A DNA stretch of 64,000 nt from Brachyhypopomus gauderio (Eukaryota; Chordata; Actinopteri; Gymnotiformes; Hypopomidae), in the NCBI RefSeq assembly GCF_052324685.1, contig NC_135213.1:36777578-36841577 (forward strand), in the 5' to 3' direction. The translations under genes and the position numbers were made by a program. The notes beneath the pieces are model-generated. The model had not been told where the DNA came from. It did no database searches and saw only the letters and a list, made by a program, of their open reading frames with translations. This document shows, piece by piece, positions 625 through 60,286 of the stretch; position 1 is the first letter of the stretch, and every line of letters starts with the position of its first letter.

Positions 625-742
625 AGATAAGACCCTGGCGCAGTACAGCCGTGACTTCCTGAGAGCGGCAGAGTGGAAGACTGAGAGGGGACAGCAAGTG
701 TGTAGACAGCTACACCTGCAGCAGCATGAGAACCAGCAGCTC

Positions 743-3700
743 CCACCCACACACACACACCACCCACACACACACACACCACCACCCACACACACCACCA
801 CCCACACACACCACCACCCACACACACCACCACACACACCACCACCCACACACACACACACCACCCACACCCACCACCACCCACACACACCCACCCACAC
901 ACACCACCCACACACACCACCACCCACACCCACCCACACACACCACCCCCACCCACACACACCACCACCCACACACACCACCACCACCCACACACACCAC
1001 CACCCACACACACCACCCACACCCACCACCACACACCCACACACACCACCCACACCCACCCACACACACCACCACCCACACCCACCACCACACACCACCA
1101 CCCACACACACCACCCACACCACCACCCACACACTCCACCACCCACCCACACACACCACCACACACCACCACCCACACACACCACCACCCACCCACACAA
1201 ACCACCACCCACACACACCACCACACACACACACACACACACCACCACCCACCCACCTACACACACCACCACACACACACACCACCCACACACACCACCA
1301 CACACACCACCACCCACACACACCACCCACACACACCACCACCCACACACACCACCCACACACACCACCCACACACACCACCACCCACACACACCACCAC
1401 CCACACACACCACCACCCACACACACCACCACACACACCACCACCCACACACACACACACCACCCACACCCACCACCACCCACACACACCCACCCACACA
1501 CACCACCCACACACACCACCACCCACACCCACCCACACACACCACCCCCACCCACACACACCACCACCCACACACACCACCACCACCCACACACACCACC
1601 ACCCACACACACCACCCACACCCACCACCACACACCCACACACACCACCCACACCCACACACACCACCACCCACACCCACCACCACACACCACCACCCAC
1701 ACACACCACCCACACCACCACCCACACACTCCACCACCCACCCACACACACCACCACACACCACCACCCACACACACCACCACCCACCCACACAAACCAC
1801 CACCCACACACACCACCACACACACACACACACACACCACCACCCACCCACCTACACACACCACCACACACACACACCACCCACACACACCACCACACAC
1901 ACCACCACCCACACACACCACCCACACACACCACCCACACACACCACCCACACACACCACCACCCACACACACCACCACCCACCCACACACACCACCCAC
2001 ACACACCACCACCCACCCACACACACACACCACCCACACACACCCACCCACCCACACACACCCCACACTCACCCACCCACACACACCACCCACACACACA
2101 CCACCCACACACACCACCCACACACACCACCCACACACACACACAGCCACCACCCACACTCACCCACCTACACACACCACCCACACACACCCACACAAAC
2201 ACACCCACCACCCACACCCACCACCACCCACACACACCACCCACACCCACCCACACACCCACCACCACACACCACCACCCACACACACCACCCACACCAC
2301 CACCCACCCACACCACCACCCACACACACCACCACCCACACACTCCACCACCCACCCACACACCACCACACACCACCACCCACACACACCACCACCCACA
2401 CACACCACCCACCCACACACACCACCCACACACACAAACCACCACCCACACACACCACCACACACACACACACACACACACCACCACCCACCCACACACA
2501 CACACACCACCCACACACACCACCACCCACACACACCACCACCCACACCACCACCCACACACACCACCACACACACCACCCACACACACCACCCACACAC
2601 ACCACCCACACACACCACCCACACACACCACCACCCACACACACACCACCACCCACCCACACACACCACCACCCACCCACACACACCACCACCCACCCAC
2701 ACACACACACCACCCACACACACCCACCACCCACACACGCCACCCACCCACACACACCCCACACTCACCCACCCACACACACACCCACCACCCACACACA
2801 CCACCCACCCACACACACCCACCACCCACACACACCACCCACACACACACACAGCCACCACCCACACTCACCCACCTACACACACCACCCACACCCACCC
2901 ACACACACCCACCCACCACCCACACCCACCCACCCACACACACCACCCACACCCACCCACACACACCACCCACCCACACCCACCTACACACACCACCACC
3001 CACCCACACCCACCCACACACACCACCCACACCCACCACCACCCACCCACACACACCACCACCCACACACACCCACCCATACACACCACCCACACCCACC
3101 CACCCACACACCACCCACACACACCACCGCTCACCCACCAACCCACACACACCACCGCTCACCCACACCACCCACACACACCACCGACACCCACCCACAC
3201 ACCCCACCCACACACACCACCGCTCACCCACCCACACACACCACCGCTCACCCACCAACCCACACACACCACCGCTCACCCACACCACCCACCAACCCAC
3301 ACACACCACCCACACACCCCACCCACACACACCACCACTCACCCACCCACCCACACACACCACCACCCACACACACCACCCACACCCACCACCACCCACC
3401 CACCCACACACACCACCACCCACACACACCCACCCATACACACCACCTACACCCACCCACACACAACACCACCCACACCCACCCACACACACCACCCACA
3501 CCCACCCACACACACCACCGCTCAGCCACCAACCCACACACACCACCGCTCACCCACACACACCACCCACACCCACCCACACACCCCACCCACACACACC
3601 ACCCACACCCACCCACACACACCACCACTCACCCACCCACACACACCACCACCCACCACCGCTCATCCACCCACACACACCACCCACACCCACCCACACA

Positions 3701-6700
3701 CACCACCACCCACACACACCACCCACACCCACCCACACACACCACCCACACACACACACCCACCACCCACACACACCACCCACACACACACCACCCACAC
3801 ACACACACCACCACCCACACACACCACCCACACACACACACCCACCACCCACACACACCACCCACACACACACACACACACCCACTACCCACACACACTC
3901 ACCCACCCACACACACACCCACCCACCACCCACACTCACCCACCCACCCACACACACCCACACACACACACCCACACACACCACCACCCACACACACCCA
4001 CCACCCACACTCACCCACCCACACACACCACCCACACCCACCCACACACACCACCACCCACACACACCCACCCACACACACACACCATCCACCCACACCC
4101 AACCACACACCCACCCACACACACCACCCACACCCACCCACACACACCTACACACACCACCACCCACACACACCACCACCCACACACACACACCACCCAC
4201 ACCCACCCACACATACCACCGCTCACCCACCCACCCACACACACCACCGCTCACCCACACCCACCCACACCACCCACACACTCCACCACCCACCCACACA
4301 CACCACCACACACCACCACCCACACACACCACCACCCACACACACCACCCACCCACACACACCACCACCCACACACACCACCACACACACACACACACCA
4401 CCACCCACCCACACACACACACACCACCCACACACACCACCACCCACACACACCACCACCCACACCACCACCCACACACACCACCACACACACCACCACC
4501 CACACACACCACCCACACACACCACCCACACACACCACCCACACACACCACCACCCACACACACACCACCACCCACCCACACACACCACCACCCACCCAC
4601 ACACACACACCACCCACACACACCCACCACCCACACACGCCACCCACCCACACACACCCCACACTCACCCACCCACACACACACCCACACACCCACCACC
4701 CACACACACCACCCACCCACACACACCCACCACCCACACACACCACCCACACACACACACAGCCACCACCCACACTCACCCACCTACACACACCACCCAC
4801 ACCCACCCACACACACCCACACACACCCACCCACCACCCACACCCACCCACCCACACACACCACCCACACCCACCCACACACACCACCCACCCACACCCA
4901 CCTACACACACCCACCCACACACACCACCACCCACCCACACCCACCCACACACACCACCCACACCCACCACCACCCACCCACACACACCACCACCCACAC
5001 ACACCCACCCATACACACCACCCACACCCACCCACCCACACACCACCCACACACACCACCGCTCACCCACCAACCCACACACACCACCGCTCACCCACAC
5101 CACCCACACACACCACCGACACCCACCCACACACCCCACCCACACACACCACCGCTCACCCACCCACACACACCACCGCTCACCCACCAACCCACACACA
5201 CCACCGCTCACCCACACCACCCACCAACCCACACACACCACCCACACACCCCACCCACACACACCACCACTCACCCACCCACCCACACACACCACCACCC
5301 ACACACACCACCCACACCCACCACCACCCACCCACCCACCCACACACACCACCACCCACACACACCCACCCATACACACCACCCACACCCACCCACACAC
5401 AACACCACCCACACCCACCCACACACACCACCCACACCCACCCACACACACCACCGCTCAGCCACCAACCCACACACACCACCGCTCACCCACACACACC
5501 ACCCACACCCACCCACACACCCCACCCACACACACCACCCACACCCACCCACACACACCACCACTCACCCACCCACACACACCACCACCCACCACCGCTC
5601 ATCCACCCACACACACCACCCACACCCACCCACACACACCACCACCCACACACACCACCCACACCCACCCACACACACACACCCACCACCCACACACACC
5701 ACCCACACACACACACACACACCACCCACACACACACACCACCACCCACACACACCACCCACACACACACACCCACCACCCACACACACACACACACACC
5801 CACTACCCACACACATTCACCCACCCACACACACACCCACCCACCACCCACACTCACCCACCCACACCCACCCACACACACCCACACACACACACCCACA
5901 CACACCACCACCCACACACACCCACCACCCACACTCACCCACCCACACACACCACCCACACCCACCCACACACACACACCCACACACACCACCACCCACA
6001 CACACCCACCACCCACACTCACCCACCCACACACACCACCACCCACACACACCCACCCACACACACACACCATCCACCCACACCCAACCACACACCCACC
6101 CACACACACCACCCACACCCACCCACACACACCTACACACACCACCACCCACACACACCACCACCCACACACACACACCCACACACACACCACCCACACC
6201 CACCCACACATACCACCGCTCACCCACCCACCCACACACACCACCGCTCACCCACACCCACCCACACCACCCACACACCACCCACACACCACCCACACCC
6301 ACCCACACACACCACCCACATCCACCCACACACCACCCACACCCACCCACACACACCACCCACATCCACCCACACACCACCCACACACACCCACCACCCA
6401 CACACACCCACACACACACACCATACACCCACCCACACACACCACCCACACACACCACCACCCACACACACCACCACCCACCCACCCACACACACCACCA
6501 CCACCCACACCCACCCACACACACCACCACCCACCCACCCACACACACCACCACCTACACCCACCCACACACACCACCCACACACACCACCCACACCCAC
6601 CCACACACACCACCACCCACCACCGCTCACCCACCCACACACACCCACACCCACCCACACACCACCCACACCCAACCACCCACACACACCACCACCCACA

Positions 6701-8763
6701 CACACACACCACCCACACACACCACCACCCACACACACCACCACCCACCCACACACACCACCCACACACACCACCACCCACCCACACACACACACCACCC
6801 ACACACACCCACCCACCCACACACACCCCACACTCACCCACCCACACACACCACCCACACACACACCACCCACACACACCACCCACCACCCACACACACC
6901 ACCCACACACACACACACAGCCACCACCCACACTCACCCACCTACACACACCACCCACACACACCCACACACACACCCACCACCACCCACACACACCACC
7001 CACACCCACCCACACACCCACCACCACACACCACCACCCACACACTCCACCACCCACCCACTCCACCACCCACCCACACACACCACCACCCACACACACC
7101 ACCACCCACACACACCACCCACCCACACACACCACCCACACACACAAACCACCACCCACACACACCACCACACACACACACACACCACCACCCACCCACA
7201 CACACCACCACACACACACACACACCACCCACACACACCACCACCCACACACACCACCACCCACACACACCACCACCCACACCACCACACACACCACCCA
7301 CACACACCACCACACACACCACCACCCACACACACCACCACACACACCACCCACACACACCACCACCCACACACACCACCACCCACACACACACCACCAC
7401 CCACCCACACACACCACCACCCACCCACACACACCACCACCCACCCACACACACACACCACCCACACACACCCACCACCCACACACGCCACCCACCCACA
7501 CACACCCCACACTCACCCACCCACACACACACCCACACACCCACCACCCACACACACCACCCACCCACACACACCCACCACCCACACACACCACCCACAC
7601 ACACACACAGCCACCACCCACACTCACCCACCTACACACACCACCCACACCCACCCACACACACCCACACACACCCACCCACCACCCACACCCACCCACC
7701 CACACACACCACCCACCCACACCCACCTACACACACCCACCCACACACACCACCACCCACCCACACACACCACCACCCACACCCACCCACACACACCACC
7801 ACCCACCCACACACACCACCACCCACACACACCCACCCATACATACCACCCACCCACACACCACCCACACACACCACCGCTCACCCACCAACCCACACAC
7901 ACCACCGCTCACCCACACCACCCACACACACCACCGACACCCACCCACACACCCCACCCACACCCACCCACACACACCACCGCTCACCCACCCACACACA
8001 CCACCCACACCCACCACCGCTCACCCACCAACCCACACACACCACCGCTCACCCACACCACCCACCAACCCACACACACCACCCACACACCCCACCCACA
8101 CACACCACCACTCACCCACCCACCCACACACACCACCACCCACACACACCACCCACACCCACCACCACCCACCCACCCACCCACACACACCACCACCCAC
8201 ACACATCCACCCATACACACCACCCACACCCACCCACACACAACACCACCCACACCCACCCACACACACCACCCACACCCACCCACACACACCACCGCTC
8301 AGCCACCAACCCACACACACCACCGCTCACCCACACCACCCACACACACCACCCACACCACCCACACACCCCACCCACACACACCACCCACACCCACCCA
8401 CACACACCACCACTCACCCACCCACACACACCACCACCCACCACCGCTCATCCACCCACACACACCACCCACACACACCACCACCCACACACACCACCCA
8501 CACCCACCCACACACACCACCCACACACACACACCCACCACCACACACACACCCACCCACACACACACACCCACCACCCACACACACACACCACCACCCA
8601 CACACACCACCCACACACACCACCCACACACACACACCCACCACCCACACACACCACCCACACACACACACCCACCACCCACACACACCACACACCACCC
8701 ACACACACCCACTACCCACACACACTCACCCACCCACACACACACCCACCCACCACCCACACT

Positions 8764-8796
<33 letters not shown>

Positions 8797-11700
8797 CCAC
8801 ACACACCACCACCCACACACACCCACCACCCACACTCACCCACCCACACACACCACCCACACCCACCCACACACACACACCCACACACACCACCACCCAC
8901 ACACACCCACCACCCACACTCACCCACCCACACACACCACCCACACCCACCTACACACACCACCACCCACACACACCCACCCACACACACACCCAACCAC
9001 ACACCCACCCACACCCACCCACACACACCTACACACACCACCACCCACACACACCACCACCCACACACACACACCACCCACACCCACCCACCCACACACA
9101 CACCACCCACACCCACCCACACATACCACCGCTCACCCACCCACCCACACACACCACCGCTCACCCACACCACCACACACACACACCACCACACACACCA
9201 CCACACACACCACCCACACACACCACCACCCACACACCACACACACCACCCACATCCACCCACACACCACCCACACCCACCCACACACACCACCCACATC
9301 CACCCACACACCACCCACACACACCCACACACACCACCACCCACACACACCCACACACACACACCATCCACCCACACCCACACACACCACCACCCACCCA
9401 CCCACACACACCACCACCCACACCCACCCACACACACCACCACCCACACCCACCCACACACACCACCACCTACACCCACCCACACACACCACCCACACCC
9501 ACCCACACACACCACCACCCACCACCGCTCACCCACCCACACCCACACACACCACCCACACCCACCCACACACCACCCACACCCAACCACCCACACACAC
9601 CACCCACACACACCACCACCCACCCACCCACACACACCACCACCCACACCCACCCACCCACACACACCACCCACACCCACCCACACACCACCCACACACA
9701 CCACCCACACCCACCCACACACACCACCACCCACCACCGCTCACCCACCCACACACACCCACACACACCACCCACACACACCACCACCCACACACACCAC
9801 CGCTCACCCACACCACCCACACACACCACCACCCCACACACACCACCACCCACACACACACCACCACCCACCCACACACACCACCACCCACCCACACACA
9901 CCACCACCCACCCACACACACACACCACCCACACACACCCACCACCCACACACGCCACCCACCCACACACACCCCACACACACCCCACACTCACCCACCC
10001 ACACACACACCCACACACACCACCCACCCACACACACCCACCACCCACACACACCACCCACACACACACACAGCCACCACCCACACTCACCCACCTACAC
10101 ACACCACCCACACCCACCCACACACACCCACACACACCCACCCACCACCCACACCCACCCACCCACACACACCACCCACCCACACCCACCTACACACACC
10201 CACCCACACACACCACCACCCACCCACACACACCACCACCCACACCCACCCACACACACCACCACCCACCCACACACACCACCACCCACACACACCCACC
10301 CATACATACCACCCACCCACACACCACCCACACACACCACCGCTCACCCACCAACCCACACACACCACCGCTCACCCACACCACCCACACACACCACCGA
10401 CACCCACCCACACACCCCACCCACACCCACCCACACACACCACCGCTCACCCACCCACACACACCACCCACACCCACCACCGCTCACCCACCAACCCACA
10501 CACACCACCGCTCACCCACACCACCCACCAACCCACACACACCACCCACACACCCCACCCACACACACCACCACTCACCCACCCACCCACACACACCACC
10601 ACCCACACACACCACCCACACCCACCACCACCCACCCACCCACCCACACACACCACCACCCACACACACCCACCCATACACACCACCCACACCCACCCAC
10701 ACACAACACCACCCACACCCACCCACACACACCACCCACACCCACCCACACACACCACCGCTCAGCCACCAACCCACACACACCACCGCTCACCCACACC
10801 ACCCACACACACCACCCACACCACCCACACACCCCACCCACACACACCACCCACACCCACCCACACACACCACCACTCACCCACCCACACACACCACCAC
10901 CCACCACCGCTCATCCACCCACACACACCACCCACACACACCACCACCCACACACACCACCCACACCCACCCACACACACCACCCACACACACACACCCA
11001 CCACCCACACACACCACCCACACACACACACCCACCACCCACACACACACACCACCACCCACACACACCACCCACACACACCACCCACACACACACACCC
11101 ACCACCCACACACACCACCCACACACACACACCCACCACCCACACACACCACCCACACACACACCCACTACCCACACACACTCACCCACCCACACACACA
11201 CCCACCCACCACCCACACTCACCCACCCACACACACCCACACACACACACCCACACACACCACCACCCACACACACCCACCACCCACACTCACCCACCCA
11301 CACACACCACCCACACCCACCCACACACACACACCCACACACACCACCACCCACACACACCCACCACCCACACTCACCCACCCACACACACCACCCACAC
11401 CCACCTACACACACCACCACCCACACACACCCACCCACACACACACCCAACCACACACCCACCCACACCCACCCACACACACCTACACACACCACCACCC
11501 ACACACACCACCACCCACACACACACACCACCCACACCCACCCACCCACACACACACCACCCACACCCACCCACACATACCACCGCTCACCCACCCACCC
11601 ACACACACCACCGCTCACCCACACCACCACACACACACACCACCACACACACCACCACACACACCACCCACACACACCACCACCCACACACCACACACAC

Positions 11701-12310
11701 CACCCACATCCACCCACACACCACCCACACCCACCCACACACACCACCCACATCCACCCACACACCACCCACACACACCCACACACACCACCACCCACAC
11801 ACACCCACACACACACACCATCCACCCACACCCACACACACCACCACCCACCCACCCACACACACCACCACCCACACCCACCCACACACACCACCACCCA
11901 CACCCACCCACACACACCACCACCTACACCCACCCACACACACCACCCACACCCACCCACACACACCACCACCCACCACCGCTCACCCACCCACACCCAC
12001 ACACACCACCCACACCCACCCACACACCACCCACACCCAACCACCCACACACACCACCCACACACACCACCACCCACCCACCCACACACACCACCACCCA
12101 CACCCACCCACCCACACACACCACCCACACCCACCCACACACCACCCACACACACCACCCACACCCACCCACACACACCACCACCCACCACCGCTCACCC
12201 ACCCACACACACCCACACACACCACCCACACACACCACCACCCACACACACCACCGCTCACCCACACCACCCACACACACCCACACACACCCACCCACCC
12301 ACACACACCC
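743..12310. repeat. 11.6-kb C/A-only satellite with higher-order units
   Basis: The + strand is almost entirely C and A. It is built from CACACA and CCACC/CCCACC modules, with rare G or T only in a few recurring variants such as CCGCTCACCC, CCTACAC, CACACGCC and CACTCACCC. Those variants act as markers and show larger repeats. The block beginning CCGCTCACCCACCAACCC starts at 3127, 5059, 7877 and 10340. The stretch from about 7.5 to 9.9 kb is repeated nearly base for base 2463 bp downstream (2454 bp later in the block), and the first kilobase contains a 595-bp duplication (around 850 and 1445). Lack of T and G removes stop codons, so huge His/Thr/Pro frames result; they are not genes. The minus strand is G/T-only with GGTGG clusters. 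The array most likely grew by repeat slippage followed by unequal exchange of kilobase segments. Confidence 0.95.
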
Positions 12311-13599: not shown

Positions 13600-15012
13600 G
13601 TGGGGGAGGGGTGTGGTGGGGGGGGTGTAGTGGAGGGGGTGTGGTGGGGGGTGTGGTGGGGGGGTGTGGTGGTGGGAGGGTGTGGTGATGGGAGGGTGTG
13701 GTGGGGGGGTGTGGTGGTGGGGGTGTGGTGGAGGGGGTGTGGTGGGGGGGTGTGGTGATGGGAGGGTGTGGTGGGGGGGTGTGGTGGTGGGGGTGTGGTG
13801 GTGGGGGGGTGTGGTGGTGGGAGGGTGTGGTGATGGGAGGGTGTGGTGGTGGGGTGTGGTGGAGGGGGTGTGGTGGGAGGGTGTGGTGGTGGGGTGTGGT
13901 GGAGGGGGTGTGGTGGGAGGGTGTGGTGGTGGGGGGTGTGGTGGTGGAAGGGTGTGGTGGTGGAAGGGTGTGGTGGTGGGGTGTGGGTGTGGTGGTGGGG
14001 GGTATGGTGGTGTGGTGGGGGGGTGTGGGTGTGGTGGTGGGGGGTGTGGTGGGAGGGTGTGGTGGTGGAGGGGGTGTGGTGGAGGGGGTGTGGTGGGGGG
14101 GTGTGGTGGTGGGAGGGTGTGGTGGTGGGGTGTGGTGGTGGGGGTGTGGTGGTGGGGGGGTGTGGTGGAGGGAGGGTGTGGTGGTGGGGGGGTGTGGTGG
14201 TGGGGTGTGGTGGTGGGGGTGTGGTGGAGGGAGGGTGTGGTGGGGGGTGTGGTGGAGGGGGTGTGGTGGTGGGGTGTGGTGGTGGGGGTGTGGTGGGGGG
14301 GTGTGGTGGGGGGGGGTGTGGTGGGAGGGTGTGGTGGAGGGGGTGTGGTGGTGGGGGGTGTGGTGGGGGTGTGGTGGTGGGGTGTGGTGGGGGCGGGTGT
14401 GGTGGGGGGTGTGGTGGGGGTGTGGTGGAGGGGGGTGTGGTGGGAGGGTGTGGTGGAGGGGTGTGGTGGGAGGGTGTGGTGGGGGGGTGTGGTGGGGGTG
14501 TGGTGGGGGTGTGGTGGGGGTGTGGTGGGGGTGTGGTGGGGTGTGGTGGTGGGGGTGTGGTGGTGGGGTGTGGTGGGGGGGTGTAGTGGAGGGGGTGTGG
14601 TGGGAGGGTGTGGTGGTGGGGGGGTGTGGTGGGGGGTGTGGTGGAGGGGGGTGTGGTGGGAGGGTGTGGTGGAGGGGTGTGGTGGGAGGGTGTGGTGGGG
14701 GGGTGTGGTGGGGGGGGTGTGGTGGTGGGTGTGGTGGTGGGAGGGTGTGGTGGTGGGGTGTGGTGTGGTGGAGGGAGGGTGTGGTGGGAGGGTGTGGTGG
14801 AGGGGGTGTGGTGGAGGGAGGGTGTGGTGGGGGGTGTGGTGGTGGGGGTGTGGTGGAGGGGGTGTGGTGGAGGGGGTGTGGTGGTGGGGTGTGGTGGTGG
14901 GGGTGTGGTGGTGGGGTGTGGTGGGAGGGTGTGGTGGAGGGGTGTGGTGGGGGGGTGTGGTGGGGGGGTGTGGTGGTGGGTGTGGTGGAGGGGGGGGGGG
15001 GGGGGGGGGGGG
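13600..15012. repeat. 1.4-kb G-rich minisatellite ending in poly-G
   Basis: More than 80 imperfect units of GGTGTGGTGG followed by GGGG, TGGGGG, AGGGG or AGGGAGG (about 12-20 bp each). The + strand is made of G and T with scattered A and almost no C. It ends in an uninterrupted G run at about 14992-15012. Regular runs of two to seven G make it a strong candidate for G-quadruplex formation. Open frames rich in Gly, Val and Trp are compositional artefacts. Confidence 0.95.
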
Positions 15013-16199
<1,187 letters not shown>

Positions 16200-23535: not shown

Positions 23536-24131
23536 TGGTTGCCTTATAAGGCCATATATTCAACAAGTTTACAATATATTAGCATTTTGTGCTAACTAAT
23601 TTTGCATAAGTTGCTGTTTTATTATACAAATTAATGAGGAGTTGAGCCTCTTAAAAGTGCTGTCAACTGTTGAGGAGCAAGAGCGTGGAAGATTATGCAT
23701 GAGAAGTATGAGAAGTTGTGTGTTCAAGATTAGGCCTACAAGCACATCATCTGGAGGTAAACTTATGGGATCTTAAAAATATAGAGGCTGATGCCTATAG
23801 TGTTGAGAAGGGGCTTAATCGCTGCACTTTGATCACTGCACGGCTGTTCCTACAAGGAAATGGCGCCTCTTTCAAATTTCGTATCGCTTCTATTTCTCAA
23901 TAAAATTTATGGCAAACTGCCTTCACGGTAAATGCTATTATTAACAAGAGTTGCATCCATTAGTTATTATTAGTTAAACTAAATTCATTGTTTCATTTCA
24001 CCAATGAAAGTAATAAAATGCTTTTTAGTCAGTAAAACGATTACGTTGCGACAGAATCAGAAAACGTTTGTGCTTATATTCCGTGATGATAAACTACTAC
24101 ATAGCACCTACAAGCAACTACATAGCACTTT

Positions 24132-24186
24132 TGTAAGTCGCTCTGGATAAGAGCGTCTGCTAAATGCCATAAATGTAAATGTAAAT
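24132..24186 (+). mobile_element. SINE/LINE 3'-tail fragment
   Basis: CGCTCTGGATAAGAGCGTCT, followed by GCTAAATGCCATAAATG and two TAAATG repeats, is the highly repeated 3' tail shared by teleost SINEs and their partner LINEs. Only the tail is present. Related decayed tails occur near 36480 and 62770. Confidence 0.75.
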
Positions 24187-48700: not shown

Positions 48701-51700
48701 AAAAATAAGTTTGCACGGGGCCCCCGTGAGTAGACTGTTCACGGGTGAGAAGTTCTGTATTTCCACCTAAAATGGCTAAAATGTCTTTGGTCTTTTGTCA
48801 TTTTTGGGGCATTTCTTGCCTTTTTTTCCGGTCATCCATAGATTGGGGCGGGCGTGTAATTCTTACATGTGAGGATGTGGTGCCACTCTTTAAGGTTTTA
48901 CCCAGGTTCGGTGTGAATGACGAACAATGAATGATTGAGATCAGTATGGGCTTTTAAAACCTCTGTTTTGTTTTTCTGTATGGAATTCCAGGGTTGGATT
49001 TGGGTTCTTTGCAGTGTAGCCGAACTGATGTAGCCCCGTATCAACCTGTCTGGGATTAATCCCTGTACTCCTAACCCTCCCCATGTGGGATTAATCCCTG
49101 TACTCCTAACCCTCTCCATGTGGGATTAATCCCTGTACTCCTAACCCTCTCCATGTGGGATTAATCCCTGTACTCTTAACCCTCTCCATGTGGGATTAAT
49201 CCCTGCACTCCTAACCCTCTCCATGTGGGATTAATCCCTGCACTCCTAACCCTCTCCATGTGGGATTAATCCCTGTACTCCTAACCCTCCCCATGTGGGA
49301 TTAATCCCTGTACTCCTAACCCTCCCCATGTGGGATTAATCCCTGTACTCCTAACCCTCCCCATGTGGGATTAATCCCTGTACTCCTAACCCTCCCCATG
49401 TGGGATTAATCTCTGCACTCCTAACCCTCTCCATGTGGGATTAATCCCTGCACTCCTAACCCTCTCCATGTGGGATTAATCCCTGCACTCCTAACCCTCC
49501 CCATGTGGGATTAATCCCTGCACTCCTAACCCTCCCCATGTGGGATTAATCCCTGCACTCCTAACCCTCCCCATGTGGGATTAATCCCTGTACTCCTAAC
49601 CCTCTCCATGTGGGATTAATCCCTGCACTCCTAACCCTCTCCATGTGGGATTAATCCCTGTACTCCTAACCCCCTCCATGTGGGATTAATCCCTGTACTC
49701 CTAACCCTCCCCATGTGGGATTAATCCCTGTACTCCTAACCTTCTCCATGTGGGGTTAATCCCTGCACTCCTAACCCCCTCCATGTGGGATTAATCCCTG
49801 TACTCCTAACCCCCCCATGTGGGATTAATCCCTGTACTCCTAACCTTCTCCATGTGGGATTAAGGCCCTTTCTCCTGCTTTGCCTTTGTACCACAACATG
49901 GCTTCGGCTGTTCCTCCATATTGTTTTACAGCTTGTTAGTGAAACCCAATCTGGCCACTGCTCTGCCAGCCAAGCACTGTCGGCTGAGGATGAGAGCAGA
50001 GGTCTGATCTCCCACCACTGAACTGCGCCATCATCCGATAATCACATCAGATGCATTTGAGCGGCCTGTGGTTGGCAGCGCTCGGTCCTGCGAGGCTGGA
50101 GTGGGAGGTTCTTACCGTGCAAGACTGGGTCATTACAGGAGTGTTAATGGAGGGCCTGCAGCTGATATAAGATTATGAGAGGCCTTTCCTTCACTCCCCC
50201 CCCCCCCCCCCCCCTCACTCTTTTACTCTCTCTGAGGTAATGCAGTAAGTCCACACTTGGGCCAGTCACAGCTAATGGTGTGTGGATGATCTCTTTCTCT
50301 CTCTCTCTCTCTCTTTATCTCACTTTCTCTTGCTCTTTCTCTGTCTCAGGCGATTTATTTTGTGCTATGTCATTGCTGGGTAATGGAGTCAAGTGAATTG
50401 TTTGTGAACATTACATGATCAATAATGAAACAGAGCCTCTTTCCATTTTTAAAACAAATAAAAGCCGTCGTGACATTAGCACACGGTAGTCTTTTCCCTC
50501 ACGCCACGCACTTTTGGACTTCTACAAAGCCAGCAAACAGCTCAAGTGGATCTCGGCCCACAGGCGAAAGTGGATTAACATAAGCGTTTAAACGGCATTT
50601 GAAGTGAAGGCAGTTGAATATTAGCCTACAGAGTGGCTGGAGTTGACTCTGTGATAAGCTGTTTTTAGTTTGCTTGCCCGGGTGCGAGCCACAGCCTGCG
50701 GAGGCTTTACTGTAGAGAGAATAGCCGCGCGTCTCCTTTGAGGTGCCGTTTTATTTGATGTTATTGGTGCAGTAAACAGGCTCTTCTGGTGATAACGGGA
50801 GGTTTTACACAGTTGTTGAGTCGGATATTTCTGCCTTCGTACTGTGGTGTTAAGCAAGTCCTGGAATCCGTCCTTGAAGAAACACTTATGCAAGACATCC
50901 CCTTGCTTAAGAATGTCTAGTTCGGACTGATCTAGGACATGTAGGAAAATATTGAATGTTTACACAAACCTTGTACATATACACAGGATCCTGTTTCTGG
51001 AGATTTCTTCCTTTTTAAAACTGTTAATGGTGTGTGAGTGTGTTTCATGCTGCTCTTAAATGCTATTATGTAATGAGTTATTTGCTGTGTGATTCCCACA
51101 GTATGTGATCATTTAAAAACGTGTGATCTTGTGAACATGTTCACGTTACTGAGAGCATGGTTGGGTTTTACTTCTATTCTTATAACAGTGCATATGTATT
51201 TTATTTCATACTAATTAAAAACATAATTCGTAAGGTAAAATAAGTTAATGAGATATTAGTCGATATCCCATGTACCACAATATTAAATACTGTAGAATTT
51301 AAGATCTTGAAAACACTGTTACTCTAATTAATGAACATTAAAGCACTGATAATATACACGGGATTCACGGTTCATGTGTGGAGTTAGTCTGATAGTATGC
51401 TGTATATCTCTTTGCTATGCTCTTAATTTAAGCTGTTAGACGACAGCAAGCAGTCGTTCATTTGAGCAAAACCACTTGTGAAAAGCTGTTTCCATGGAGG
51501 CGTGCTAATATTCCTCTGTAGTGTCTTTGTTGGTGCCGTTGGGCGCAGTCATCTCTGGATGGAGTAGCACTAATGCCCCCCCCCCCCCCCCCCCCCTCTC
51601 GCCCCCCAGGGGAGAGCCAGGTGCAGACCCCGCAGTGCCGGATCCAGAAGTGCACCACCGACTTTGTGTCGCTCACGTCGCACCTCAGCCCCTCGCTGGA

Positions 51701-54088
51701 CGGCTTCGATGCCGAGTTCTGCAAGGCCTTGCGCTCGTATTCCGGCTGCACGCACCGCACCGCCAAGAGCTGCCGGGGAAACCTGGTCTTCCACTCCGCC
51801 ATGCTGGGAATCACCGACCTCATGAGCCAGAGGAACTGCTCCAAGGACGGGCCCACGTCCTCCACCCACCCCGCGGCCCCCGTCGAGCCCTGCAACTACC
51901 ACAGCCGCTACCACCACCAGGTGGCGCTGGCCGGCGCCCGAGGGCCCGAGCCCCAGCGCCCTGCCTTCCTTTTCTGCGGCCTGTTCGGAGACCCGCACCT
52001 GAGGACTTTTAAGGACCAGTTCCAGACCTGTAAGGTAGAGGGGGCGTGGCCCCTGATCGATAACACCTACCTGTCCGTGCAGGTAACCAACGTGCCGGTG
52101 GTACAAGGCTCAAGCGCCACGGCATCCAACAAGGTGAGCTGCTAGCGTGTGCTTTGTTTACCTGTTTACTTTTACTACCACTTAGCATATATTTTTTTAA
52201 TGTATTTTTCTTTTTAACACTTCACGGCATTTTTACTGTGTCACTGAATCTCCATGTTTTAATTAAGAGTAAAAAAGGTGTCTTAACTAGAGGTATGGAT
52301 GTTTGATAGGCCACAGAGCTATTTCAGCTTTGACTGCAGGTGCAGGCTGGACAGTGTGGAGCTCCTGTCCTGTAACACGTCTGTGAAACGTCTGCAGTGC
52401 TGTTAATGACTCAGTATAGCCCAAGCTGGACTGCAGCCCTTAATAAGACAGGCATGAACGAAGCCTCTGTCTCCGTTTGTCCAACTGAATGTCTCTCTCT
52501 GTCTCACTCTCTCTGTCTCCGTTTGTCCAACTAAATGTATCTCTCTCACCAGCCTGTCTTTCTCACTCTGCTGTCTGTTTATCTGGGCTGATACTCTCTC
52601 TGTCTCTCTCTCTGTCTCCCTCTCTCAGTTTCTGTATCTCTCTCTCTCTCTCTCTCATATACATACCATCCACCATTGCAGTACACTGACTGTCACATGC
52701 TAAATGCCCATAAATGTCTGTTTTCGCTCTGTGAGAGTGCCATCTTATTTTTTGATACCAGAAGAAGACCAGCAGGTCTTCTTTCTCTTTTTCTCCTTAA
52801 TGATGAGCGTTAAGCTAATCTGAGGTGATGTGAGGGCGCTAGTGCCTGGCTGGACTACGCTAATACTAACCAACTCTCATTTGTGACCTTTTGACTTTGG
52901 AGGTGGGGCCCATTAGGAACTGTTTGCCCGTAATTATTAGCGCCCCCTGCTCAACTGAGGCTCTTTCAGCCACCTTTCTGGACGGCCGGCTCATGGCCAT
53001 TTTTCATGTGTGTCATGCGAACAAAGCTTGCATTCACCCTTCACTAACGTAACACCACACATCTTGTTCGTCAGTAGGCTTCCTCTCCTTTTGCGGCGTT
53101 ATGGACTTGCGTGATTCTAACCCTCTACAGTAGATTCGTATGGGCATATGTCCACAGCTTAAAACATTGTTTCTGGCCGACACCCACTGGCGTTATTGCT
53201 GTTATTACTTTCATAATGATTTATGATTTTGACACACTGCGTAAAAACCTGGCATTAATAATTTGTACTTAACTGCTACATGAATAAACATTGAAACTGT
53301 GATGGTCTGATGTGTCCAGAAGATGCCGATTCCAAGATTTTGCCTAAATACACACCCAGACGAAACACTGAGCACAATGTATTTTCAATTTTCAGATCAC
53401 AATAATATTCAAACCGTATCAGGAGTGCACGGAGCAGAAGGTGTACCAGGCCGTGACGGACGATCTGCCCGCTGCCTTCATGGACGGGTCCGTCATGGGC
53501 GGCGACAGCGAGAGCCGCAGCCTCCTGATCGTGGAGAGGACGGCGGGCCGGGAGGTGGAGCTCCACGCCGCCTACATCGGGGTCACCATGGTGGTGCGGC
53601 AGCTGGGTCGCTACCTGACGCTGGCTGTCCGCATGCCCGAGGAGCTCGCCATGGCCTTCGACGAGACGCAGGACCTGCAGCTCTGCATGAACGGCTGCCC
53701 CACCTCCGAGCGCATCGACGAGGAGGGGCACCTGCGCCTGCCCGTGCTCGGCCTCCAGCAGGGCGGCGCTCTCGCGCAGACCAGGCCCGGCCCGGTGGCG
53801 GCCGCTGTGGCGGCCCAGAAGGGGGCCTTCACGCTGGAGAGCGCCTCCAGGAAGTGTAGCGAGAAGTTGGAGGTTAAGGACATCTACTTCTATTCGTGCG
53901 TGTTTGACCTCCTCACCACCGGAGACGCTAACTTCACCTCGGCCGCCTACAACGCCCTGAAGGACGTGGAGATGCTGCACCCCAAACGGGAGCGTTGGCA
54001 CATTTTCCCACGCTCCGGAGCGACGTCGGGACGGCCAGCCGCCTTGAGCGTTCTCCTCGTCTGTCTACTCACAGCCGCGATGTCGTAG
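45662..54088 (+). CDS. rgmb: Repulsive guidance molecule B (DRAGON), complete, 3 coding exons
   Basis: Coding exons 45662-45758, 51610-52133 and 53396-54088 join in frame to 437 codons, the length I recall for human RGMB. RGM proteins are GPI-anchored cell-surface co-receptors for BMP2/4 and ligands of neogenin, acting in axon guidance and BMP signalling. Residues 1-33 form a signal peptide with the hydrophobic core [11 protein letters not shown]. The N-terminal RGM domain starts at about C42 ([17 protein letters not shown]) and includes [11 protein letters not shown] and [13 protein letters not shown]. The partial von Willebrand D domain has FGDPHLRTF, whose Asp160-Pro161 bond is the family's autocleavage site. 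The end is hydrophobic ([15 protein letters not shown]), as expected of a GPI signal. [16 protein letters not shown] and [12 protein letters not shown] match RGMB better than RGMA, and linkage to an ERAP gene supports RGMB. Introns are phase 1 and phase 0. Exons 2-3 are strongly GC-rich at third positions. Confidence 0.95.
47695..47735. repeat. (CT)n microsatellite in rgmb intron 1
   Basis: Short CT-rich tract, interrupted. Confidence 0.85.
49051..49863. repeat. 35-bp minisatellite with GGGATTAATCCC palindrome
   Basis: About 23 units of 35 bp. Each carries TGGGATTAATCCCTG, then TACTCCTAACCCT or CACTCCTAACCCT, then CTCCATG or CCCCATG. Units differ at only a few positions (T/C before ACTCC; CTCC/CCCC). 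GGGATTAATCCC is a perfect 12-bp palindrome containing two inverted TAATCC sites, the core bound by K50 (Otx/Pitx/Gsc-type) homeodomains. The array lies inside rgmb intron 1. Confidence 0.95.
50196..50214. repeat. Poly-C run
   Basis: An uninterrupted run of 19 C in rgmb intron 1, followed by short CT repeats to about 50340. Confidence 0.9.
51576..51609 (+). promoter_or_regulatory. rgmb: Splice acceptor of rgmb exon 2 with 21-C tract
   Basis: The acceptor is a run of 21 C (51576-51596), then TCTCGCCCCCCAG and the exon at 51610. The polypyrimidine tract that U2AF reads is thus a mononucleotide repeat, prone to length change. The exon start is fixed by the phase-1 join completing Gly33. Confidence 0.8.
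51610..52133 (+). CDS. rgmb: rgmb coding exon 2
   Basis: It completes Gly33 and encodes residues 34-207. It holds the N-terminal RGM domain with its cysteines, one N-glycosylation sequon (NCS), the GDPH self-cleavage site (G159-D160-P161-H162) and the conserved [12 protein letters not shown]. The donor is AACAAG|GTGAGC, phase 0. Confidence 0.95.
52134..53395 (+). other. rgmb: rgmb intron 2
   Basis: A 1.26-kb phase-0 intron, GTGAGC to TTTTCAG. It holds CT-rich DNA (52485-52650) but no other feature that I can support. Confidence 0.85.
53396..54088 (+). CDS. rgmb: rgmb coding exon 3 and stop
   Basis: It encodes residues 208-437 and TAG. It includes [38 protein letters not shown], the neogenin/BMP-side C-terminal domain [18 protein letters not shown] with NFT sequon, and the GPI signal. 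An Ala/Gly-rich loop (about residues 330-350, [15 protein letters not shown]) has drifted from the mammalian sequence. Antisense open frames over this exon are shadows. Confidence 0.95.
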   Translation: MTIIFKPYQECTEQKVYQAVTDDLPAAFMDGSVMGGDSESRSLLIVERTAGREVELHAAYIGVTMVVRQLGRYLTLAVRMPEELAMAFDETQDLQLCMNGCPTSERIDEEGHLRLPVLGLQQGGALAQTRPGPVAAAVAAQKGAFTLESASRKCSEKLEVKDIYFYSCVFDLLTTGDANFTSAAYNALKDVEMLHPKRERWHIFPRSGATSGRPAALSVLLVCLLTAAMS

Positions 54089-56190
54089 TCCGACTGGCCA
54101 AAACTGTTTCCACAGAAAAAAAAAAAGAATAAATAATCAGAAAACTGGGGAGGAGAGTATGAACAAGCAGAATGTTACTTGTATATACTGTGTGAATGGA
54201 GGACACAGGAGGCATCGCTTTCTATGACTGTAAATTGTGTACATGCCATTTTCAGGAGACCTGTTTTTTTACGTGTGTGCTTTTTATGTGATTTTGATTT
54301 GTTGCCCTCCGGAGAGGACATCCCAATGGAAGCACTTTATTTTTTAGGTTGCAACTACAGAACAGTGTTCCACAGAACCAGAACCCAGCGACCTGGGATT
54401 GTTTCTTGATTCCCACAAGCGCTTTTTTAGAAACCCTTTTGCGTGCGTCTGAACGTAGGCAGGACTCACCATGGAAACTCAGACTGACGTGACAGTAGGT
54501 TATTTGAATTGTGCACCTGCCCTGGTGTTGTGATTGGTGTCAGAGGAAATAGTTATCTGTTTAGAAGTTTCTCATTTGTAGCCTAGAATTCAGTGTTTAA
54601 CATTTGTCCGAGTGTAAATTAAAAAAATGAAGAATTCAAACAAAAACAGCAGATATAGGTTGAAGTGAACCTAGTGTTCAGTAAATTTCACAGGTGTATT
54701 TTTGTACATTTCCCATGAAGGTTGCCCACTGGGGAATTGTTCATTTGCGTTCAGTTAAATTCCTCCTTTTTATCAACGACAATCAGAATTTTTTTTTTTG
54801 CCAGCACTTCAAATACAGATGTATATATTGAAAGGTTGCAGATGGAATGAGGAGGGGAAAAACATCTCATAGTTCCAGTCTGATTTGATTAAGACTTTCC
54901 TGTATGTCAGCTAGTCCGGCGTTACGCTCACTGAGGAAGGCGGACAGAAGGGATTTCTGCCTCGCTGCAGTGACGTGTTTGGTTTGATGATGTCCACATA
55001 TGGCTCCAGGTGTTCTGATGCATCCTCAGTTTGATCTCGGTTCACTACTAATGTACAGTCTTTCCTTTACTTAGTCTCAGTGGCCAGGCATGCTGGGACA
55101 TCAAGTATAGTAAGGTTTGGGGTTTTTGTTTTCTTTTGTTTTTGTCCTCTAACCAAAGATCTTTTATGTTATTTTTCTCTCTCTCAGCTTATAGCTGGCA
55201 CAAATTATACATCAATTGGATATTTACACTGTTGATACCTGAGTTAGTCATATTTGCTGTCTGATACACTAGGTGTCCTTAAATGCTCAGTGGGAGAGAT
55301 TTTTTATTTTAAAAAAATTCTACGGGCTGTTTGGGGATCCCACGTGGACGTTCCTCATTAATTCCTCATTGGTTGTCTCAATACTTTCAAATATGTCACT
55401 GAGTTCATTCATGAGGTATTCCAACGATCTACATGTTCTGAAAAAGCTCACTGTTCTTTGAGTGCGCGTTTCACCGATTATGCCAGCAATGCTTTATGGT
55501 CATACTTTATGGTGAATGCCTTACAGTGCATCCAGAATGGAAGCCCATAATAACACTCCCAATCTAAATCCTCCTTTGTACCATATTCCTTTTTAAATAT
55601 TTGCTACTGTAGACTCATGTTTGCGCATTTGTTGATTTGCAACTACTGTCTGTGCTGCAGAGCTGCTATCATACTGTGACTAGTGTAATAGATTGTATTT
55701 GGAACACTGGGAGTTTTGCCAGCAGTGATTGGCCAAATTCTAGATGGGCTGTACTGATTGGCCAAATCTTGGATGGTCTATGTTGATTGGCTGAAAACTA
55801 GATGGGCTTTATATCGTTGAATTATGGAGTATTTAAAACCAGAGCAAGGCATCTGAGTGCAATTACTGCAAAGGTTAGCCTTCATCCTGTGTTTTTGTTT
55901 TGTTGCGTTTGATCTTGTGATTTTGTTTTATTTTTATCGTGAGTTATTTCTGTTTTTTGTGAAGAGTGACTGCTCGATGTTTATACTTAAATTATTTATG
56001 AAATATAGTGTCTTGTTAGAGAAGTTAAGCTCCATATTCTTGCTGTTTGGATATAAAGTTTCAGATGTGATTGTACTGCCACCTAGTGGACCACCATTGT
56101 TACATCAGTGTTTTAGTATTGTACTGGATGCGGTGACTAAAAACAGAAACAAGGAAAAGGTGTGTTTTATTTAAAACATTAAATGAAAAT
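54089..56190 (+). other. rgmb: Probable 3' UTR and downstream region of rgmb
   Basis: AT-rich DNA without a gene. AATAAA at 54128-54133 lies only 40 bp after the stop; ATTAAA variants lie at 54618 and 56178-56183. RGM transcripts commonly have long 3' UTRs, so a distal end is possible. The true cleavage site cannot be seen from sequence. Confidence 0.45.
56166..56171 (-). terminator. ptcra: Candidate poly(A) signal of ptcra
   Basis: TTTATT on the + strand gives AATAAA on the minus strand, about 670 bp after the ptcra stop. It is the first canonical signal I found downstream of the ptcra stop; it would make the two converging transcripts (rgmb and ptcra) end close together or overlap. Confidence 0.35.
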
Positions 56191-56838
56191 ACATAAACTT
56201 TGTTGGATCTGATTGGTCATTGATTCAGCCTGATATGTATGTTCTTATATAGGCAGTGTGCCATTTAATTTACATAATTTACATTTATACTCAACAACGT
56301 ATTGGGTTGTGTTGTGGGCTGTGCCATGTAACACATGAGAATTATGTTCCATTAAATCCACAGAAGTAAGCATGTTCTCAAGTCTCTGCACAGAACTGTC
56401 TCACAATTCAGCTACTCAAACATTTGGAAGGATTTACAATCCTCATCAACGTCCTCTTAACGTGAGAAGTGACTCGACTGACTTCAGCAGAAGGAGAAAT
56501 GTTCCAAAACTGCCTGGTGCACTTCACCTGTTGTGTTCTTCGGAGGTTCCTCGAGGTTGGTTTGTGATCAGATAGCTCCTGCTCCCACCACCTCATGCAG
56601 CACCTGTGCTCTGCTGCTGCCTGCTTGGTTTCGTTGTCTGATCCTAAACTGGAGGGTGACCCCAAAATTCAAAACACGCGCTCAAAATGCAGCTAGGAGT
56701 GGGTGACCTTCTTCCATTGTGCCTTTGGATCACAACTGTTATATTTACTACACGACATTCTGAAAGAGAAAAAACATATGAATATTGAGTAAGTATTGTA
56801 AGAATATTTAGCAGGGCAGTGATGTGACAATATAGACA

Positions 56839-56948
56839 TTACCACTTAATAACAGCTTGTGCAGTCATCAGGACATTGAATACAGTGATCTTGAAGAAGA
56901 TGATTCTCAGAACGTAGATAATCAGAAGGTCTGTGTGTATTTGGATAT
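56839..56948 (-). CDS. ptcra: ptcra exon 4 (transmembrane, stop)
   Basis: Acceptor CCCTTCCAG. It encodes the membrane segment IIYVLRIIFFKITVFNVLMT, then AQAVIKW and TAA. A GTAATG beginning one base before the end of the Trp codon could serve as an alternative donor to a further tail exon; none was identified downstream. Confidence 0.8.
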
Positions 56949-57834
56949 CTGGAAGGGACAAAAAGAAAAAATATATTTATTTATATTCTTAGTCATATCG
57001 ACACAACTACTGAATTGCATGTTTTAAATTGGTTCATTTTAGAAGCTTTCTGGATATCACTAACCATTGAACAAATCAGATTGATGCTTGGAACACATAT
57101 CCTGTGTGTCCTTGTCATCTACAGATGGAGGAAGAAGATACATCAAATCTAATGGTATATTAAGCAGCTGTAGATTGTATGCACACATCCACCAGGCCTG
57201 ATTCAGAAGCTCACGTGCACTACACACTTCAATGTTCTCGCTGATCTAGCCCTTCTGATTGAGAGTCAGACTGCCTGATATGCTGATGTAGACATTACGA
57301 CCAGGATCGTTTTAGGACACTATGATTTACCTGTTTGTAGTCCAACGGTGGGGCTGTGCATGAACTGAGCAGGTCTTCTGTGACTCAGGAAGCATGTGTA
57401 GGTGTTCCATTCAGGAGGCCCCACAGACTGCATGGACGTGGGATCAAACACATTGAAAGTGCTTTCTTCCTCTCCGACTACATTGTACATGACAGGACCT
57501 GATCCACTGGTGCCTCTGCGGATCCAGGAGATCCCTGCATCCCTGTTCAGGGCGTCATTGAACACACAGACCAGGATGGTCAAACCCCCAGGATCCATTG
57601 GGATGTGGAAAAAGGGAAATAAAGTTCCATAAGGGGCAGACTTCACCCCTACTATGTTATTCACTGTCAAAGAGATACACACACACAAACACGTACAAAA
57701 CAACTTAAAAAAGTTTCAACTTCACCTAAGATGAAATAACACATTACGGGAAATGATCTGAATTTATCAGATTAAAAGTTGTTTTTGTTTTACTCACACG
57801 TAACGAGCAGGACGGTGTTGAAGCGGTGCAGCAT
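56839..57834 (-). CDS. ptcra: Pre-T-cell antigen receptor alpha (pT-alpha), 4 exons, very short tail
   Basis: Minus-strand exons 57834-57798, 57663-57331, 57118-57065 and 56948-56839 all have GT/AG borders, share phase-1 joins and give 177 codons. pT-alpha pairs with TCR-beta in immature thymocytes and, with CD3, signals beta-selection. Residues 1 to about 22 are a leader (MLHRFNTVLLVTLNNIVGV). Residues 26-121 form one C-type Ig domain with Cys45 (TILVCVF), Trp59 (ISWI) and Cys103 (YTCFL). The small third exon is an acidic connecting peptide with a single Cys132 for the interchain bond. The membrane segment (149-170) has Arg156 and Lys161 five residues apart, then VFNVLMT, as in pT-alpha and TCR-alpha. 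The leader joins the C-type domain directly, with no V or J segment, and a small Cys exon precedes the membrane exon, as in mammalian PTCRA. No N-glycosylation sequon is seen, and only about seven residues follow the membrane, unlike the long mammalian tail. A diverged TCR-alpha-constant-like orphan is the main alternative. Confidence 0.75.
57065..57118 (-). CDS. ptcra: ptcra exon 3 (connecting peptide with Cys)
   Basis: A 54-bp exon with acceptor CATCTGTAG and donor CAATG|GTTAGT, phase 1 to phase 1. It encodes DDKDTQDMCSKHQSDLFN. Its size, acidity and one cysteine match the small connecting exon of PTCRA and of TCR-alpha constant genes. Confidence 0.7.
57331..57663 (-). CDS. ptcra: ptcra exon 2 (Ig domain)
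   Basis: Acceptor CTTTGACAG, donor ACAG|GTAAAT, 333 bp, phase 1 to phase 1. It encodes the single C-type Ig domain with the Cys45/Trp59/Cys103 triad. Confidence 0.85.
57798..57834 (-). CDS. ptcra: ptcra exon 1 coding part (leader)
   Basis: ATG at 57834-57832. It encodes 12 residues plus one base, with donor ACGT|GTGAGT (strong). The start is the only ATG in frame before a hydrophobic stretch. Confidence 0.7.
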
Positions 57835-57975
57835 GGTCGCGGTGTGCGCCCTGCCAAGCCACGCCGGGGATTAGCGACTCCTGATCACGTGACTTCTCAC
57901 CCGCCACGGAATCTTTCCACTGTGGTGCTCCTCCCTCTGGAGGCCCTCTGCTAAAATATAGATGCACTGAGGTCC
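57835..57975 (-). promoter_or_regulatory. ptcra: Candidate ptcra promoter
   Basis: On the minus strand TATATTTTAG lies at 57960-57951, about 120 bp upstream of the ATG, as a possible TATA element. A RUNX core (TGTGGT on +, 57921-57926) and an E-box CACGTG (57886-57891) lie between it and the start. RUNX and E-box factors act in thymocyte genes; binding here is inferred only from motifs. Confidence 0.4.
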
Positions 57976-58561
57976 AGGGCAGGAGTTACATATCTACGGT
58001 CATCTTCACGGTGGGTTATTTTGGCAACGTGACATTATGGGATTAAGTTTTGAAGTGACGCCGTGAGTAACTGATTCACCGTGTTTTCTGTAACTCTGTG
58101 TTTAGTAAGATCACACCTGTTTGGCGGTTTGTGGTCAAACAATGATCTGAACACCAACGGCTTTTGTACATCTGTGTATTTGTATGTGATCCGTCCCTAT
58201 CATACCCTAATGAGTGAATTAGGTTAATCATCCTCTTCATTATAAGATCATTTTCCTCAGTAAAATCTAATATTTTTGTCTCACTTGTCAGGAATGAGAT
58301 ACATGAACATATGGTACTGTAGCCCACAACCATTTTAGATATGCTTCACGTACATGTATTAACACAGACACTAAAATAACCAGCACAAACATCCACTTAT
58401 CACCCCCCCCCCCGTATTACTGAAAAAAGTTGCTGTATTATGCTGAGATGTAATCAGCTTTACACTGCAGAAACCAAGAGGTGCTTTGCTGAACGTTTTA
58501 TTCAGACCACCAGAATTAAGCATTTGTCATTCAGTGGCCTTTCCATTTCTGTGTGCATCAC

Positions 58562-58602: not shown

Positions 58603-58879
58603 TGCGTGCGCACATCACCAGTTATAACTACGGAAGCAATGAATTTAGGAACCTCGAAGAAAAGGAGCTTTAGAACCCCGAGGAATGAATGCTGTTATAA
58701 ACATCTACTTTTTCTAATATAAACCGATTCTTCCTCATAGAAATTCAAAAGCATATATAAATAAAGCAGTTTGAAATTTCAAGGCGCTTAACTTTAATTA
58801 TGCACTGGTCTGTTATGACATTACTCTGTCCCGACTCGTTGACGACCGTAAGTCATTTGTCCCCGAGATGCCTGGTCCG

Positions 58880-60166
58880 TTGGTGGGTGTCCAGACCTCC
58901 TCTGCACTAACACGAGGTGTTGGTGTGTGTCCAGATCTCCTCTCTGCACTAACACGAGGTGTTGGTGTGTGTCCAGATCTCCTCTCTGCACTAACACGAG
59001 GTGTTGGTGTGTGTCCAGACCTCCTCTGCACTAACACGAGGTGTTGGTGTGTGTCCAGATCTCCTCTCTGCACTAACACAAGGTGTTGGTGGGTGTCCAG
59101 ACCTCCTCTGCACTAACACGAGGTGTTGGTGTGTGTCCAGACCTCCTCTGCACTAACACGAGGTGTTGGTGTGTGTCCAGATCTCCTCTCTGCACTAACA
59201 CGAGGTGTTGGTGGGTGTCCAGACCTCCTCTGCACTAACACGAGGTGTTGGTGTGTGTCCAGACCTCCTCTGCACTAACACGAGGTGTTGGTGGGTGTCC
59301 AGACCTCCTCTGCACTAACACGAGGTGTTGGTGTGTGTCCAGACCTCCTCTGCACTAACACGAGGTGTTGGTGTGTGTCCAGACCTCCTCTGAACTAACA
59401 CGAGGTGTTGGTGTGTGTCCAGATCTCCTCTCTGCACTAACACGAGGTGTTGGTGGGTGTCCAGACCTCCTCTGCACTAACACGAGGTGTTGGTGTGTGT
59501 CCAGACCTCCTCTGCACTAACACGAGGTGTTGGTGGGTGTCCAGACCTCCTCTGCACTAACACGAGGTGTTGGTGTGTGTCCAGATCTCCTCTCTGCACT
59601 AACACGAGGTGTTGGTGGGTGTCCAGACCTCCTCTGCACTAACACGAGGTGTTGGTGTGTGTCCAGACCTCCTCTGCACTAACACGAGGTGTTAGTGGGT
59701 GTCCAGACCTCCTCTGCACTAACACGAGGTGTTGGTGTGTGTCCAGACTTCCTCTGCACTAACACGAGGTGTTGGTGTGTGTCCAGACCTCCTCTGCACT
59801 AACACGAGGTGTTGGTGGGTGTCCAGACCTCCTCTGCACTAACACGAGGTGTTGGTGTGTGTCCAGACCTCCTCTCTGCACTAACACGAGGTGTTGGTGG
59901 GTGTCCAGACCTCCTCTGCACTAACATGAGGTGTTGGTGTGTGTCCAGATCTCCTCTCTGCACTAACACGAGGTGTTAGTGTGTGTCCAGACCTCCTCTG
60001 CACTAACACGAGGTGTTGGTGTGTGTCCAGACCTCCTCTGCACTAACACGAGGTGTTGGGTGTGTGTCCAGATCTCCTCTCTGCACTAACACGAGGTGTT
60101 AGTGTTTGTCCAGACCTCCTCTGCACTAACACGAGGTGTTGGTGGGTGTCCAGACCTCCTCTGCAC
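58880..60166. repeat. 40-42-bp minisatellite upstream of erap2
   Basis: About 31 tandem units built from CCTCTGCACTAACACGAGG, TGTTGGTG and TGTGTCCAGA or GGGTGTCCAGA, then CCTCCT or TCTCCTCT. Units are 40 bp, or 42 bp where CTCTCTGC replaces CTCTGC. The two GTGTCC/GGGTCC types alternate in blocks. Every unit carries AGGTGT, a T-box half-site. The array fills the interval between ptcra and the erap2 promoter. Confidence 0.95.
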
Positions 60167-60169
60167 TAA

Positions 60170-60286
60170 CATTTGCATGCAGCAGCGCAGGAAGGCAGCA
60201 CGCGCGCGGGGGAGTTGTGGGCCGGGCACTTAAAAGGGAAAACGAAAGCTTGTCTGTGCGCACGACAATGAATAGCCGAAATTCAG
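60170..60286 (+). promoter_or_regulatory. erap2: erap2 promoter and untranslated first exon
   Basis: A CpG-rich segment (CACGCGCGCGGGGGAG) directly follows the minisatellite. It holds TTAAAAG at 60231-60236 (TATA-like) and GAAAACGAAA at 60238-60247, a perfect GAAANNGAAA interferon-regulatory-factor core. A donor CAG|GTAACC at 60286/60287 suggests a short non-coding first exon starting near 60260. ERAP genes are interferon-inducible in mammals, which fits the element. The transcription start is inferred. Confidence 0.6.

Follow-up and report, generated by a model that had tools for sequence, protein, structure and literature searches.

In mammals, the pre-T-cell receptor (pre-TCR) alpha chain, or pTalpha, is a surrogate chain with which newly formed T-cell receptors are tested, and its gene, PTCRA, is laid out with a leader exon and a small exon for the connecting peptide. 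Four papers (PMC11759298, PMC6747487, PMC8559430 and PMC10464911) state that teleosts or fish lack PTCRA or that it has not been identified in them, and PMC9138301 mentions an indirect suggestion that ectotherms are without the gene. In PMC12529555, no PTCRA is reported for axolotl, its absence from Xenopus and zebrafish is repeated, and an origin in amniotes is favoured; PMC9614664 also places the origin in amniotes. No fish PTCRA is named in the excerpts of PMC7824517, PMC10183603 and PMC9365674, and no report of one was present among the open-licence literature matches listed; such a report, or an automatic annotation, may already exist. A fish gene of this layout would open a direct route to studying how TCR beta chains are checked in fish. 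It would test the amniote-only view of PTCRA, and the debate on the role of the mammalian tail would gain a nearly tail-less pre-TCR of natural origin.

A candidate for such a gene lies on the minus strand (57834–56839) of a stretch of 64,000 nucleotides from Brachyhypopomus gauderio, referred to here as the window. For the annotation of the window, 521 stop-to-stop ORFs of at least 45 codons were collected beyond 15.5 kb; 88 were low-complexity or repetitive and were dropped, leaving 433. The Pfam annotation covered eight ORF stretches. RGM domains (RGM_N and RGM_C) were located at 51522–54085 on the plus strand, the best PDB match being RGMB (72 of 102 residues identical in the first gap-free block), and an M1 aminopeptidase with ERAP2 as its best PDB match begins at about 60849, also on the plus strand. 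The neighbours named in the original prediction, rgmb and erap2, were thus supported by domains and by structural database matches. According to an excerpt of PMC9614664, amniote PTCRA adjoins CNPY3 and RPL7L1 or POLR1B. That synteny was not seen in the window, in which the nearest genes recognised from the eight stretches given to Pfam are rgmb and the erap2-like gene.

Several repeats were observed along the window. Very long, strand-skewed simple arrays, CA-rich and GTGG-rich (742–12310 and 13600–15006), make up most of the first 15 kb; the GC skew is near −0.98 over 4–12 kb, and its sign flips between the CA-rich and GTGG-rich arrays. A UnaL2 LINE 3' element (Rfam RF00436, 70.5 bits) occupies 24120–24173 on the plus strand; this element, short introns and the distance between the RGMB of the window and its best PDB match would all fit a fish. 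Upstream of rgmb there is a 35-bp tandem array (49051–49863; 23 copies, 96% matches), and a 40-bp minisatellite of about 32 copies (58879–60171) lies between the 5' end of the candidate gene and the erap2-like gene.

The candidate gene has four exons. The coding part of exon 1 (57834–57798) spans 12 codons, the start codon (MLHRFNTVLLVT) among them, plus a single base, and ends at the phase-1 donor T/GTGAGT (the slash marks the junction). Exon 2 (57663–57331) encodes the last part of the leader, then a single Ig domain of the C1 type that carries Cys45, Trp59 and Cys103. Exon 3 (57118–57065) is a 54-bp connecting-peptide exon with a single cysteine, Cys132; a leader exon and a small exon of this kind are shared with PTCRA. 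Exon 4 (56948–56839) encodes a juxtamembrane stretch, then a membrane helix that contains Arg156 and Lys161, followed by VFNVLMT, AQAVIKW and TAA. When joined, the exons gave one open frame of 534 bp, i.e., 177 residues and the TAA stop. The introns measure 134, 212 and 116 bp; all three are GT-AG and in phase 1. Their donors ranked 7th, 1st and 8th among the 215 GT sites in 55000–58499, as scored with a weight matrix. It had been predicted that four minus-strand exons with matched phase-1 joins encode Cys45, Trp59, Cys103, one connecting cysteine and the Arg156/Lys161 pair, and that N-glycosylation sequons are absent; the frame was found intact, each of these residues was located in the translation as described, and the 177-residue product contained no sequon. 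The leader, encoded by exons 1 and 2 joined, is a modest signal peptide (best 11-residue hydropathy, 1.85). In the region just upstream (57835–58400), neither a CSL site nor a TATA box was found. Five E-boxes (CANNTG) were present, including CACGTG at 57891 and CAGGTG at 58119.

The original prediction also held that no V or J segment is involved, and the scan of the window agreed with this. The J motif [FW]GxGT did not occur in the six frames beyond 15.4 kb, and a simple V-domain regular expression had no match in the window. When up to three mismatches were allowed, no 23-spacer RSS was found (2.95 expected by chance), and the two 12-spacer RSS found were at chance level (3.00 expected). With its own leader exon in frame and no V or J segment found in the window, the gene has a non-rearranging layout.

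The helix motif R-x4-K-x4-[ND]-x-[LIVMF]-[LIMVF]-T was present a single time when positions 15401–64000 of the window were read in six frames. In 60 first-order Markov simulations it occurred 0.08 times on average (1 at most), and a stricter form appeared in none. The candidate helix was compared, without gaps, with four references, namely human PTCRA, human TRAC, TRDC and, from the PDB, 6mf8. The score was 47 for PTCRA (9/25 identical), 45 for the TRAC helix of 6mf8 (10/25), 41 for human TRAC (9/25) and 37, the lowest of the four, for TRDC (9/25). Full shuffles did not reach the score for any of the references (0 of 20,000 for each). When R and K were kept fixed, the score was reached by none of 20,000 shuffles for PTCRA or 6mf8, by one for TRAC and by 26 for TRDC. 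A search of the PDB (177,635 sequences) with the C-terminal 55 residues gave one chain at E<=10, a TCR alpha C region; this match is weak (E 0.27) and, alone, not significant. As a control, the helix end of human PTCRA itself was searched against the PDB and had no match at E<=10, and hence little can be read from the candidate helix not matching PTCRA there. By these scores, the candidate helix belongs to the TCR alpha/delta/pTalpha type, with a likeness to TRAC about equal to that to PTCRA. Such a helix predicts assembly with CD3 and zeta, and by itself leaves the extracellular partner unnamed.

For the Ig domain, Pfam reported C1-set alone, with E values of 0.012 for the whole protein and 0.0042 for exon 2, both below the curated cutoff. 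A phmmer search of the PDB with the full protein gave 3358 matches at E<=10, and the best 60 were all antibody chains; neither TCR nor PTCRA chains appeared in that set. Matches to Ig light chains were single-stretch and went down to 7e-05; the domain is therefore a C1 domain. A reading as IgM was considered and rejected, the full-protein value of 2.3e-06 being a sum of weak matches to repeated C domains (best single-stretch i-E, about 0.2). The domain was also aligned to eleven human domains, with 400 shuffles for each. The z-scores were highest for IGKC (8.3), IGLC2 (6.9), IGHM CH4 (6.8) and IGHM CH3 (5.6), followed by PTCRA (4.3) and CH1 (4.1), and the low end was formed by B2M (2.1), TRDC (2.0), TRGC (1.8), TRBC (0.7) and TRAC (0.3). 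By the same measure, the bona fide human PTCRA domain also had the C domain of an Ig light chain as its closest neighbour (IGLC2, z 6.5), and its likeness to TRAC (z 3.5) exceeded that of the candidate domain. Trp59 and the similarity to Ig-type C1 domains separate the candidate domain from TRAC, and these comparisons point to an ordinary canonical C1 domain, distinct from that of TRAC. An AlphaFold model of exon 2 alone was of low confidence (pLDDT 42.6), its strand pattern being compatible with an Ig domain. Viral contigs scanned with the exon-2 protein gave six pattern matches, with no relative among them.

The original prediction had named the gene PTCRA and had proposed a profile search against PTCRA and TCR-alpha constant domains. 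That search did not support the name: neither PF15028, the Pfam model for PTCRA (for which HMMER filters may hide matches above about 0.1), nor DUF1968, the model for TRAC, matched the product at E<=10. In control searches, PF15028 detected human PTCRA at 7.7e-72 over residues 20–144, and thus excludes the helix, and DUF1968 detected human TRAC at 2.4e-38. BLASTP of the product against human PTCRA gave no alignment at E<=100. MAFFT aligned the two proteins end to end with 23% identity. PMC9614664 gives a much higher value, at least 49% (data not shown there), for PTCRA of human versus non-mammal tetrapods. A likeness to PTCRA after Cys103 (R..Q.MH), noticed post hoc, was weak, and was reached by 844 of 20,000 shuffles. 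The exon plan, the C1 domain and the helix type stood, but the name PTCRA itself was not supported, with PF15028 unmatched, other neighbours at the locus and a helix about as much like that of TRAC.

The tail of the product is short. Only AQAVIKW follows the helix motif, and a further exon spliced from GTAATG near 56842 would have bearing on this. Exon 4 was therefore assessed in two forms, unspliced (177 residues) and spliced at GTAATG (176 residues). In the latter, a possible intron 4 of 83 bp (56842–56760, minus strand) has the donor GTG/GTAATG and the acceptor TTTTTTCTCTTTCAG/A. The donor score is modest (4.21; 22nd among the 215 GT sites in 55000–58499), and the acceptor, 83 bp beyond it, has 13 pyrimidines in 15 positions. 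Since joining to this acceptor creates a TGA stop (TG/A), the tail remains short with or without the splice, at 6–7 residues across the two forms, and the short-tail claim held. The sequence beyond may be a 3' UTR exon (56759–56166, minus strand), ending at the first AATAAA (56171–56166), with an earlier ATTAAA at 56269. The contrast drawn earlier with the tail of mammalian PTCRA fared less well. According to PMC9614664, non-eutherian mammals have shorter PTCRA tails with fewer prolines or none. PMC10373305 finds that the tail does not control localisation, describes it as poorly conserved in both sequence and length, and refers to mouse studies on both sides of whether it is needed. The weight of a missing tail is weakened because shorter, proline-poor tails are reported and the mouse evidence is divided. 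A short tail thus has precedent, as far as these descriptions go.

Taken together, we consider it probable that the gene in the window is complete, does not rearrange, and encodes a chain of the TCR alpha type with a function like that of pre-TCR alpha. The best reading of its product would be a pTalpha-like partner for TCR beta, signalling through CD3. The chain would be made without V-J joining in thymocytes in which TCR beta is rearranged and TCR alpha is not. Its single C1 domain would pair with the TCR beta constant domain, Cys132 may link the two chains by a disulfide, and CD3 and zeta dimers would be recruited by the helix residues Arg156 and Lys161. Because the chain is almost tail-less, the complex would be expected to signal via CD3 ITAMs alone. 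Against a pTalpha-like role, the z-score of the domain with PTCRA is lower than those with IGKC, IGLC2, IGHM CH4 and IGHM CH3, PTCRA itself is more like TRAC than this domain is, and the signal peptide is unimpressive. The unmatched Pfam models, the BLASTP result, the antibody chains that fill the best 60 PDB matches, the upstream region in which no CSL site or TATA box was found and the low-confidence AlphaFold model likewise count against it.

Different origins are compatible with a pTalpha-like role. That the gene is a true orthologue of amniote PTCRA, older than amniotes and either relocated or retained at another locus, is a tentative possibility; the same exon plan, the C1 domain with its Trp, the end-to-end MAFFT alignment and the helix score with PTCRA, the highest of the four, all speak for it. 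However, PF15028 did not match and the flanking genes are not CNPY3, RPL7L1 or POLR1B (both of these tests being amniote-based), the identity is far below the tetrapod value given in PMC9614664, the likeness after Cys103 is weak, and searches of Xenopus and axolotl in the literature recovered no PTCRA. It is possible, though less likely than not, that ray-finned fish possess a working pre-TCR alpha by common descent with amniotes, beta-selection via an invariant alpha surrogate being older than amniotes and missed elsewhere. If that were true, the nearly tail-less chain would point to an ancestral receptor that relied on CD3 alone for signalling. The gene may instead be an independent fish invention, in which a TRAC- or TRDC-like membrane end was combined with an Ig-type C1 domain and came by convergence to fill the role of pTalpha or a similar role. 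We regard this as possible, if short of probable. It would account for a locus unrelated to that of amniote PTCRA, for TRAC being the sole (weak) PDB match of the helix, and for the possible 3' UTR exon after the helix, a layout like that of TRAC and TRDC, but the C1 domain itself is neither TRAC-like nor TRDC-like by z-score.

Other explanations do without a pre-TCR. The gene might encode an Ig receptor chain that associates with CD3 in mature T or NK-like cells and does not pair with TCR beta, which would fit a helix that predicts CD3/zeta assembly and does not name the partner outside the cell. We find this unlikely, as one C1 domain with a connecting-peptide cysteine suggests the layout of a TCR-chain partner, and the product is without a ligand-binding V domain. 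A pseudogene or a displaced constant-region relic, to which a tandem repeat just upstream of the gene might point, appears very improbable in view of the intact frame, the GT-AG ends of all three coding introns and the presence of a start codon and leader.

When the candidate, read as a pTalpha-like chain, is set beside the known systems, Ig light-chain and IgM constant domains are the closest to its C1 domain, both by z-score and in the phmmer search of the PDB. Unlike the candidate, Ig light chains have no membrane helix, and the IgM membrane stretch aligned in the PDB search is without the R-x4-K pair. The TRDC helix, like that of the candidate, has R-x4-K and an NFLLT-like end; the helix score with TRDC was nevertheless the lowest of the four, and no V/D/J context was found in the window. 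With TRAC the candidate shares LRI...K...FN.LMT in the helix and a connecting-peptide cysteine, and its possible UTR exon resembles the UTR exon that follows the helix in TRAC. It differs from TRAC in its own leader exon and canonical C1 domain with Trp59, and in leaving DUF1968 unmatched; constant exons spliced to a rearranged J were not found, there being no J motif and no RSS above chance in the window. From PTCRA of amniotes the candidate differs in its lack of a match to PF15028, its locus, its lack of sequons and its stretch of only 6–7 residues past the helix motif, and the helix end of the candidate, FNVLMT, reads closer to TRAC than to PTCRA. The features held in common with PTCRA are a single C1 domain with C-W-C, a one-Cys connecting peptide, an R-x4-K helix followed by N/D and T, and no V-J joining. 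We liken the candidate to PTCRA mainly because it joins a C1 domain of the Ig type to a helix of the TCR alpha type, as PTCRA does; the argument concerns layout and not sequence identity.
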